A stretch of 64,000 bases of DNA from Mycobacteriales bacterium (lineage in GTDB: Bacteria; Actinomycetota; Actinomycetes; Mycobacteriales; SCTD01): the NCBI GenBank assembly GCA_030447385.1, contig JAUJOY010000003.1, positions 345,000 to 408,999 on the forward strand. Reading direction: 5' to 3'. Position 1 is the first letter of the stretch; each line of letters starts with the position of its first letter. The position numbers were made by a program, and so were the translations under genes. This document shows positions 20,113-29,442 of the stretch, in pieces. Below the pieces are notes generated by a model. That model searched no databases and was not told where the DNA came from. It saw nothing but the letters and a program-made list of their open reading frames with translations.

Positions 20113-20892
20113 GTGCGAGCCGCCGTCCTCGGCTCCCCGGTCGCGCACTCGCTGTCCCCGCGCCTGCACCGCGCGGCCTACGCCGCGCTGGGCCTGGACT
20201 GGACCTACGACGCGATCGACCTGCAGCCCGGGGGCCTGCACTCCTTCCTGGACGGCCTCGACCACGAGTGGGCCGGCCTGTCGCTGACGATGCCGCTCAA
20301 GTCGGCGGTCCTGCCGCTGCTCGACACCTGCGCGGACCTCGCCCGGGCCGTGGCCGCTGCCAACACGGTGGTGCTGCGCGGCGGACTGCGCCACGGGCAC
20401 AACACGGACGTGGCCGGGATCGTCGCGGCGCTGCGCGCGCACGGCATCGGTGCGCCGGAGCGGGTGGTGGTCCTCGGCGGGGGAGCGACCGCCCGGTCCG
20501 CCCTCGCGGCCCTGGCCCAGCTGGGCTGCCGCCGCCCGGTCCTGGTGGTGCGCAGCTTCCCCGCCGACACGCTCGCTGCAGCCGACCGGCTGCGCGTGCA
20601 GCCGGAGGTGCGGGCGCTGTCGGCGCAGGTGTTCTCGGGGTGCGACCTGGTGGTCAGCACGCTGCCGCCCGGCGCCGGGGACGTCGCCGCGACCCACGTC
20701 CGCAACGTCCCGGCGCTGCTCGACGTGGTCTACGACCCGTGGCCGTCCGAGCTGGCGTCCGCGTGCCGGGGGACGGTCGTCGGCGGCGCCGAGATGCTCC
20801 TGCACCAGGCGGCGGCACAGGTCGAGCTGATGACCGGGCTCCCTGCGCCGGTCGAGGCGATGCGGGAGGCACTGGCAGACCTCAAGCCCTGA
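20113..20892 (+). CDS. aroE: Shikimate dehydrogenase
   Basis: Reduces 3-dehydroshikimate with NADPH. The 259-residue protein has the substrate-binding Ser13/Ser15 (HSLSP), catalytic Lys63 (TMPLK) and Asp99 (NTD), and the nucleotide loop VLGGGATARSA (about 120-130). The C-terminal GGAEMLLHQA segment is also conserved. The other shikimate genes (aroC, aroK, aroB, aroQ) lie 18 kb downstream beyond the pilus island, so the pathway cluster is split here. Confidence 0.95.
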   Translation: MRAAVLGSPVAHSLSPRLHRAAYAALGLDWTYDAIDLQPGGLHSFLDGLDHEWAGLSLTMPLKSAVLPLLDTCADLARAVAAANTVVLRGGLRHGHNTDVAGIVAALRAHGIGAPERVVVLGGGATARSALAALAQLGCRRPVLVVRSFPADTLAAADRLRVQPEVRALSAQVFSGCDLVVSTLPPGAGDVAATHVRNVPALLDVVYDPWPSELASACRGTVVGGAEMLLHQAAAQVELMTGLPAPVEAMREALADLKP

Positions 20893-20915
20893 CACGAGAG
20901 GGCCGATGGGACTGC

Positions 20916-23875: not shown

Positions 23876-23977
23876 GCCCGGGACGGCGCAGCCGACAGCC
23901 CCCCGCGTACGCACCGGGTCAAGGCCTGCGCGGTTCCGTCCGAAGCAGTCGGCAGACCCCGGCGCCAGGAGACCCAC

Positions 23978-25645: not shown

Positions 25646-25751
25646 GTGCTCCTGGGCGCCTTGCACCCGGAGCGGCTCAAGGGGCCGCAGCGAGGCGCCG
25701 ATGCCTGCGGGGAGCACAGCGCCGGACGCCCCGGCGCCGAGGAAGGACCAC

Positions 25752-27459: not shown

Positions 27460-28680
27460 ATGGCAACCGCGACGTTCGAGTACAAGGTCCGCGACCGGAC
27501 CGGCAAGATGAAGACCGGGACGCTGGACGCGGAGACGCAGGCCCAGGTCGCCAACAAGCTCAAGACCATGGGTTACGCGCCCGTGAGCATCACGCAGTCC
27601 AACTCCGGGCTCAAGAAGGAGCTCTCGATCCCGGGGTTCGGCAAGAAGGTCAAGCTCAAGGACCTGGCGGTCTTCTCGCGGCAGTTCGCCACGATGATCA
27701 ACTCCGGGCTCTCGCTGCTGCGCGCGCTGACGATCCTGACCGAGCAGACCGAGAACAAGGAGCTCGCCCGGATCCTCGGCGAGGTCCGCGGCGACATCGA
27801 GACGGGAAACAGCCTGTCCGCCTCGATGGCGAAGCACCCTGCGGTCTTCCCGCCGTTGATGGTGAACATGTGCAAGGCCGGTGAGGTGGGTGGCTTCCTC
27901 GACTCGGTCCTCATGCAGATCGCGGAGAACTACGAGGCCGAGGTCAAGCTGCGCGGCAAGGTGAAGTCCGCGATGACCTACCCGATCGTGGTCTTCGTCA
28001 TGGCCGTGCTGGCCGTCATCGGCATGCTGATGTTCATCGTCCCCGTCTTCGAGGCGATGTTCAAAGACCTCGGCGCGACCCTGCCGCTGCCCACCCGGTT
28101 CCTGGTGTTCCTCAGCGGTCAGATGAAGATCCTGCTCCCGATGCTCGTGATCGGGCTCGTCGCCTTCTCGATCGTCTGGAAGAAGATCAAGCGGGACGAG
28201 AAGGTGCGCGGGTTCGTCGACCCGCTCAAGCTCAAGGCGCCGGTCTTCGGCTCCCTGTTCAAGAAGATCGCCCTGGCCCGGTTCGCCCGCAACCTCGGCA
28301 CGATGCTCAAGAGCGGCGTGCCGATCCTGCAGAGCCTCGACATCGTGGCGGACACCTGCGGCAACATCGTGCTCGCGCGTGCAGTGCGCGCCGTGCAGGA
28401 GAGCGTGCGTACCGGTGAGTCGGTGACGCAGCCCCTGACCGAGCACCCGATCTTCCCGCCGATGGTGGTGCAGATGATGTCGGTCGGTGAGGACACCGGT
28501 GCCCTGGACACCATGCTCGCGAAGATCGCCGAGTTCTACGACCAGGAGGTCGAGTCCACCACGGAGAGCCTCACGGCCCTGCTGGAACCGCTGATGATCG
28601 CCTTCATGGGCGCCATCATCGGCGGGATGATCGTGGCCCTCTACATGCCGATCTTCAAGATCTTCGAGCTCGTCGAGTAG
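27460..28680 (+). CDS. pilC: Type IV pilus inner-membrane platform protein PilC
   Basis: The predicted 406-residue polytopic membrane protein has two T2SSF domains (each beginning with FSRQFATMINSGLSLL and FARNLGTMLKSGVPIL) and three predicted transmembrane helices (about 172-195, 222-242, 378-400). It anchors the ATPases and moves pilins into the fibre. N-terminal ATFEYKVRDRTGKMKTGTLDA is typical. Starts 13 bases after pilT. Confidence 0.95.
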   Translation: MATATFEYKVRDRTGKMKTGTLDAETQAQVANKLKTMGYAPVSITQSNSGLKKELSIPGFGKKVKLKDLAVFSRQFATMINSGLSLLRALTILTEQTENKELARILGEVRGDIETGNSLSASMAKHPAVFPPLMVNMCKAGEVGGFLDSVLMQIAENYEAEVKLRGKVKSAMTYPIVVFVMAVLAVIGMLMFIVPVFEAMFKDLGATLPLPTRFLVFLSGQMKILLPMLVIGLVAFSIVWKKIKRDEKVRGFVDPLKLKAPVFGSLFKKIALARFARNLGTMLKSGVPILQSLDIVADTCGNIVLARAVRAVQESVRTGESVTQPLTEHPIFPPMVVQMMSVGEDTGALDTMLAKIAEFYDQEVESTTESLTALLEPLMIAFMGAIIGGMIVALYMPIFKIFELVE

Positions 28681-28683
28681 CAC

Positions 28684-28739
28684 CACGGCTCCTCGCGGGA
28701 CGAGTCCCCGCCGGCCTGCAGCCGGCGGGGCTCGCCGTG
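28684..28739 (+). terminator. Strong hairpin after pilC
   Basis: CCCCGCCGGC (28706-28715) and GCCGGCGGGG (28721-28730) form a perfect 10-bp stem with loop CTGCA. CGAG/CTCG extends it past a bulged T, and outer CACGGC/GCCGTG (28684-28689 and 28734-28739) may add more. No T-run follows, as is common for high-GC terminators. It would separate the pilBTC transcript from pilA. Confidence 0.7.
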
Positions 28740-28849
28740 CGTTCCCGCTCCGGTGAAGAAGCAGCCGCCACGAACGGGTGAAGCTTCGCCGTTGTTCCCG
28801 AGCCTGCTCAAGTGAGCCGGGGCCGAGCCCGAACATCAAGAGGTCATCG

Positions 28850-28938
28850 AGTCGCAAGGCACAGCAAGGGCACACCCGTCGCGAGGCGGGGTCGCAAAGC
28901 CGAGGGGCCTGCACCCGCAGGCACGCCTGGCTGCCTGA
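28850..28938 (+). ncRNA. Cyclic-di-GMP-I (GEMM) riboswitch aptamer upstream of pilA
   Basis: The RNA matches the GEMM-I pattern piece by piece. P1 AGGCA/TGCCT (28857-28861 and 28932-28936). Conserved strand GCAAGGGCACACC (28864-28876). P2 CCCGTC/GGCGGG (28875-28880 and 28885-28890) capped by GNRA tetraloop GCGA (28881-28884). The invariant GGGTCGCAAAGCC block (28888-28900). P3 with perfect GCCTGC/GCAGGC stem and ACCC loop (28907-28922). The closing GCCTGGCTGCC (28925-28935), matching the family GCCGGGCTGCC. It should sense c-di-GMP in the pilA leader. P3 is shorter than in the Vc2 example. Strong pattern match, not computed. Confidence 0.88.
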
Positions 28939-29014
28939 GCCGGATCCTCCCCAGGAGGAGCCGCGCGAGGGACCGCAGCACCACCGCGCGGCTCACCTAC
29001 ATCCGTCCAGGAGG
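28936..29014 (+). promoter_or_regulatory. Putative expression platform and ribosome-binding site of pilA
   Basis: Downstream of the aptamer, GAGCCGCGCG (28958-28967) pairs perfectly with CGCGCGGCTC (28985-28994). The alternative TGAGCC (28936-28941, touching the P1 strand) can pair with GGCTCA (28990-28995), which would exclude that hairpin. TCCTCC (28945-28950) can pair either locally with GGAGGA (28954-28959) or with the actual ribosome-binding site GGAGGA (29010-29015). These competing helices suggest translational switching. Direction (ON or OFF with ligand) cannot be decided by eye. Confidence 0.5.
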
Positions 29015-29022
29015 ACATCGCA

Positions 29023-29442
29023 ATGCTGGCTCGCATCCGCAAGGCTGAGCAGAACGACAAGGGCTTCACGCTCATCGAGCTCCTCGTCGTCGTCATCATC
29101 ATCGGCATCCTTTCCGCCATCGCCATCCCGACCTTCCTCAAGCAGCGCGAGAAGGGCTGGGACAAGGCCGTCAAGTCCGACCTTCGCAACAACGCGCTGA
29201 AGATGGAGGAGTACCTGGACGACAAGGGCGTCTACCCGGCCACCGCCGACGCCGGCTTCAAGCAGTCCGACACCGTCGGCCCGACGACTGTCGTCCTCGG
29301 TGCGGGTGGCGCAACCGGCTTCTGCATCCAGGCCGAGTCCACCAAGATCGATGCTGCCTCAGTCGCCCCGATCACGCGCATCCAGCACTTCCTCAGCAAG
29401 AACGGCAAGCCCGCCACCGGTGCTTGCCCCGCGGCGCTGTAG
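29023..29442 (+). CDS. pilA: Major type IV pilin PilA
   Basis: The predicted 139-residue prepilin has a 14-residue basic leader ending KG, cleavage between Gly14 and Phe15 (GFTLIELL), Glu at mature position 5, a hydrophobic assembly helix (about 15-40), and a soluble C-terminal domain with two cysteines (Cys101, Cys135) positioned for a disulfide loop. AGGAGG lies nine bases before the ATG. Its own leader riboswitch and terminator mark it as the separately and strongly expressed main subunit. Confidence 0.95.
   Translation: MLARIRKAEQNDKGFTLIELLVVVIIIGILSAIAIPTFLKQREKGWDKAVKSDLRNNALKMEEYLDDKGVYPATADAGFKQSDTVGPTTVVLGAGGATGFCIQAESTKIDAASVAPITRIQHFLSKNGKPATGACPAAL

Follow-up and report, generated by a model that had tools for sequence, protein, structure and literature searches.

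A predicted class I c-di-GMP riboswitch, closed by a covarying long-range helix, behind a WhiG-type promoter in the leader of an actinobacterial type IV pilin gene

Control of type IV pilin or other pil genes by riboswitches that sense cyclic dinucleotides has been described in C. difficile, where the class II riboswitch Cdi-2-4 lies in the leader of pilA1 (PMC6200980), and in Geobacter, where a GEMM-I aptamer precedes pilM (PMC9262584). Cdi-2-4 is an ON switch that acts by transcription read-through. The G. metallireducens pilM riboswitch is also an ON switch and works through a transcription terminator, but its ligand is cGAMP; its P1 forms solely with ligand, and its switching strand lies upstream of the strand that stabilises the aptamer (PMC9262584). 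At the level of the promoter, the anti-sigma factor RsiG holds WhiG when c-di-GMP is present, and RsiG has been implicated in type IV pilus control in the genus Rubrobacter (PMC8325347). In the literature searched, which was mostly open-access, we found no described c-di-GMP riboswitch from the actinobacterial phylum.

The locus studied here lies in a 64,000-nucleotide stretch of actinobacterial DNA (the window), and has features of all these systems. Like Vc2 and Cd1, members of the c-di-GMP-I class (Rfam RF01051), it has the core sequence and fold of the class, the equivalents of G20 and C92, and a GNRA tetraloop on P2. Unlike them, it has a P3 without the 11-nt tetraloop receptor and a covarying helix, here named P0, around the aptamer and an adjoining hairpin A, and it lacks a canonical terminator. 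It shares with Cdi-2-4 the position of a c-di-GMP riboswitch directly before the gene for the major type IV pilin, albeit with a class I instead of a class II fold. With the pilM riboswitch it shares a GEMM-I aptamer before pil genes and a switching strand upstream of the aptamer-stabilising strand, although the gene is pilA and not pilM. As in Rubrobacter, the pil cluster has WhiG-type promoters and the genome encodes an RsiG with motifs of the form E(X)3S(X)2R(X)3[Q/H](X)3D (PMC8325347); RsiG is twin-motif here, however, and a riboswitch is absent from the text of that paper, whereas here pilA appears to have both layers. As far as the searched, mostly open-access literature shows, three things are new: the use of such a riboswitch before an actinobacterial pilA, the leader with P0, and the combination with RsiG-WhiG.

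When the whole window was scanned against Rfam 15 with cmscan, RF01051 was the sole match at gathering level. The alignment spans the complete model (positions 1-87), and its score of 54.7 bits (E 6.1e-8) is well above the gathering cut-off of 35. This covariance-model search had been proposed in an earlier note on this DNA, which had recognised a GEMM (c-di-GMP-I) riboswitch in the pilA leader of an actinobacterium, and the result bears out that reading: the pilin gene lies directly downstream, and the host has a Frankiales/Actinomycetes affiliation. Also as described there, the riboswitch lies between a strong hairpin that follows pilC (stop at 28680) and the start of pilA, and the core strand, the GCGA tetraloop, the GGGTCGCAAAGCC block and the closing GCCTGGCTGCC are all present. 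The aptamer thus occupies a 5'-leader position, with 84 nt between its end and the pilA start, in keeping with a class whose members head genes for motility, pili, membrane or environmental functions, and its predicted membership of the RF01051 class is clear. On its own the aptamer folds no better than shuffled sequences (z -0.5), which is expected for a GC-rich tertiary fold.

In the RF01051 alignment, the equivalents of the pocket bases G20, A47 and C92 (Vc2 numbering) are G28869, the A of GCAAAGCC and C28934, and the ligand-contact positions are intact (G20 at 28869, the A of GCAAAG, and C92/C93 at 28934-28935). These cytosines bear on the assignment of P1. The earlier note had paired AGGCA with TGCCT, but that pairing would consume both C92/C93 equivalents and was rejected; comparison with homologues indicates that P1 is most likely the helix given in Table 1. 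Covariation in P1 is slight (199 pairs versus 193 ± 2.4), since the helix is nearly invariant among homologues.

Table 1. Predicted features of the pilA leader and of related sites in the window
Feature	Position	Strand	Basis
WhiG/sigma28-type site before the roadblock/DUF4388/small-GTPase unit	20882-20907		motif match
WhiG/sigma28-type site before pilB	23919-23944		motif match
WhiG/sigma28-type site before pilT	25677-25702		motif match
Strong hairpin downstream of pilC, lacking a U-tract; likely an insulator or the 3' terminus of pilC mRNA	28700-28742	+	-31 kcal/mol, z -3.65
Putative sigma28/FliA/WhiG-type promoter TCAAG-N16-CCGAA	28808-28833	+	motif at flagellar spacing; homologous leaders
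P0 helix, 5' strand GAGUCGC	28849-28855	+	covariation in aligned leaders
P1 helix (most likely), 5' strand GGCACAG	28858-28864	+	homologue comparison; 6 of 7 pairs
c-di-GMP-I (GEMM-I) aptamer core, P2 (GCGA tetraloop) and P3 (ACCC loop)	28859-28938	+	RF01051 match
P1 helix (most likely), 3' strand CUGAGCC	28935-28941	+	homologue comparison
Hairpin A (GGAUCCUCC-CCA-GGAGGAGCC)	28942-28962	+	-10.2 kcal/mol
Hairpin B (GAGCCGCGCG/CGCGCGGCUC)	28958-28994	+	-24.2 kcal/mol, z -3.9
P0 helix, 3' strand GCGGCUC	28988-28994	+	covariation in aligned leaders
Small hairpin GUCC-AGGA-GGAC holding Shine-Dalgarno AGGAGG (29009-29014)	29005-29016	+	-5.3 kcal/mol, z -3.1
pilA, major type IV pilin, 139 aa	29023-29442	+	N_methyl PF07963, 1.6e-9

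Alignment of 41 actinobacterial pilA leaders points to a long-range covarying helix, P0, that closes a junction around the aptamer and hairpin A. One P0 strand lies just 5' of P1 and the other about 27 nt (range 21-38) upstream of the start codon, and the two are complementary in nearly all 41 leaders in spite of different sequences (GAGCCGC/GCGGCUC, GAGCUGC/GCAGCUC, GAGCCAC/GUGGCUC, GACCGCU/AGCGGUC, AGACGC/GCGUCU and others). Pairing was found in 89.5% of cells, compared with 30-45% when the strands were slid by 1-3 bases. The 24 distinct strand pairs form 142 of 168 possible pairs, against 123.6 ± 2.9 when strands were re-dealt among leaders, a value reached in 0 of 20,000 trials; without the four rows placed by hand, three of which have a different strand sequence, the count was 129 versus 120.3 ± 2.1 (p 0.0003). 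Re-dealing keeps the relatedness of the leaders, so that these figures are not strict probabilities. The unit accordingly extends further upstream than position 28850, where the earlier note had begun it, to take in the P0 5' strand and the promoter.

Other elements of the leader are conserved to different degrees. Most aligned leaders have a hairpin where hairpin A lies, and visual inspection of these shows compensating changes; the hairpin that holds the Shine-Dalgarno sequence is similar in many but not all. Hairpin B competes with P0 for 28988-28994 and also with the base of hairpin A; in leader L001 it is about 2 kcal/mol better than P0 when no ligand is present. Of the 41 leaders only about 18, that of the window included, have this long competitor stem, and the others have P0 without it.

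In the mechanism that we propose, binding of c-di-GMP would stabilise P1, a ligand dependence that has been measured for P1 of the related pilM riboswitch (PMC9262584), and a stable P1 would bring the P0 5' strand beside its 3' strand. P0 would then, in this clade, beat hairpin B, and the closed, compact junction would alter the translation or the lifetime of the pilA mRNA, and c-di-GMP would in this way change PilA production. No canonical (U-tract) terminator was found on the + strand of the leader, which makes an effect on translation or mRNA lifetime likelier than attenuation. Simple masking of the Shine-Dalgarno sequence, as a translational switch, was rejected, since constrained folding of the 41 leaders with P0 enforced or forbidden gave no consistent direction of change in Shine-Dalgarno exposure; P0 and hairpin B share their last base, so that neither alone masks the start site. 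Three further pairings were also set aside: one between the beginning of the coding sequence and the P0 5' strand, once freed, does not covary, and those of CCUCC in hairpin A with the Shine-Dalgarno sequence and of the anti-Shine-Dalgarno arm with a stretch GGGACC exist only in some lineages. As to the sign at the RNA level, we lean slightly towards ON: P0 would close only a few bases from where the transcript is predicted to begin, and might thereby shield the mRNA.

Transcription attenuation, in which hairpin B would terminate without a U-tract and P0, stabilised by ligand, would be the antiterminator (an ON switch), or the reverse, seems unlikely. Hairpin B is very stable and takes up the whole seven-base 3' strand of P0, so that the two exclude each other, and U-tracts are said to be missing from some actinobacterial terminators; however, no terminator-like site lies on the + strand of the leader, and over half of the leaders with P0 have no hairpin B. 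Sensing of 3',3'-cGAMP, as by GEMM-Ib of Geobacter, is far less probable still. A single base can switch the specificity of GEMM-I, and G20A-GEMM-I has been crystallised with 3',3'-cGAMP (PMC6274999), but the base equivalent to G20 is a G here, the c-di-GMP form, and a c-di-GMP signal system is present in the genome as ordinary GGDEF and EAL genes. Since this G is kept in the pocket, c-di-GMP is the expected ligand and cGAMP specificity was rejected. It is likewise very improbable that the aptamer, although present as exactly one copy in the 3.41-Mb genome by RF01051 model search, is a decayed relic in a leader that merely insulates pilA or sets mRNA stability independently of ligand, because the bases that contact the ligand are intact both in this copy and in those of about 40 relatives, across genera, while the stems vary. 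The pilA leader very probably contains a genuine c-di-GMP-binding riboswitch of the G20 type.

The earlier note had considered the short P3 with its 4-base loop unusual. The loop (ACCC) is as described, but the feature is the rule in actinobacteria: by a simple pattern search, the 11-nt receptor in P3 is absent here and from all 109 actinobacterial members, which marks the short P3 as a trait of this clade and not a peculiarity of the window copy. The GNRA loop is nevertheless kept in 99 of the 109 aptamers. Docking of a GNRA loop in the 11-nt receptor is common in c-di-GMP-I riboswitches and is not required for membership of the family; in the window copy the GCGA tetraloop is present and the receptor deleted. 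It is possible that the tetraloop of receptor-less aptamers docks simply in the minor groove of a helix.

Upstream of the leader, the putative promoter of pilA has the sequence (a TCAAG/TAAA-type -35 and a CCGAW-type -10 element) and spacing of flagellar-type promoters, which would place the transcript start at about 28843. Of 44 pilA leaders, 33 have a WhiG-type site at about -50 to -56 relative to the aptamer, compared with a mean of 0.34 in shuffled sequences. The window holds four TCAAG-N14-17-CCGAW sites against 0.35 expected, a number that no shuffle reached. Genome-wide, enrichment of a similar pattern is mild (22 versus 13 in the reversed control), so that isolated matches elsewhere mean little. 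The genome encodes two FliA/WhiG sigma factors above the curated cut-off (TIGR02479, 287 and 286 bits), and no flagellin genes were found in it; the pil cluster looks like a WhiG regulon in a flagellin-less genome. Together with the WhiG-family sigma factors there is an RsiG orthologue (PF22802, 9e-32; structure 6PFJ of S. venezuelae RsiG, 3.5e-33) that carries two c-di-GMP motifs, EADLSYIRRMIQGRLD and ERAVSAKRRALHDVLD. In total, two RsiG-like proteins were seen (L254:1360-1941 and L253:1138-1674 (-)); the second carries a perfect motif and another whose final D is replaced by G, and perhaps pairs with the second WhiG-like sigma factor.

With a WhiG-type promoter, RsiG and a riboswitch at one gene, the same messenger probably has two points of action on pilA, the promoter and the RNA. 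By analogy with Streptomyces and Rubrobacter, high c-di-GMP would turn the promoter layer OFF through RsiG and WhiG. We tentatively propose, as a reading that could well prove wrong, that Actinomycetes have a conserved two-layer c-di-GMP module on the major type IV pilin, in which RsiG-gated WhiG transcription is combined with a class I riboswitch whose expression platform, a P0-closed junction set a constant distance ahead of the start codon, would be a switching architecture without earlier description. If such a module is real and the signs of its two layers are opposite, it would give pilus production a band-pass response. In a large and poorly studied actinobacterial group, the major pilin would be tied directly to c-di-GMP, and a gene under both a riboswitch and the RsiG-WhiG anti-sigma switch would offer a testbed for how two readouts of one second messenger are combined, with the P0 helix as a concrete, mutable switching element.

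Of the 24 genomes in the taxonomic family, 20 have one or more c-di-GMP-I riboswitches, as do 30 of 399 and 43 of 395 genomes of the order and class samples, respectively. Among named records, the closest aptamer subtype is found in Frankiales, Frankiaceae and other Actinomycetes. About 40 actinobacterial copies precede pilA, with some 55-110 nt between aptamer and start. At the pilA starts of the 41 aligned leaders (29023-29034 in the window, for example), the third codon (Ala) is nearly always GCT or GCA. In GC-rich genomes GCC or GCG would be expected at an Ala codon, and the bias suggests selection for weak structure at the pilA start.

Some copies outside pilA leaders lie 10-40 nt ahead of genes for secreted or membrane proteins. 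At several loci (L003, L006, L012, L013, L028, L172-L174, L182 and L186) the riboswitch ends only 14-37 nt from the start of a small secreted protein; the Shine-Dalgarno sequence directly follows the aptamer, and the protein has a signal peptide followed by a SAFTxSN-like sequence. A second actinobacterial c-di-GMP-I subtype (GGCACACCG...GGGCCGCAAAGGCA) lies mostly about 75-95 nt ahead of genes for short secreted proteins (L196, L197, L203, L207, L217, L218, L220, L222, L231-L233, L240, L241 and L243), and several riboswitches of this subtype also have WhiG-type promoters.
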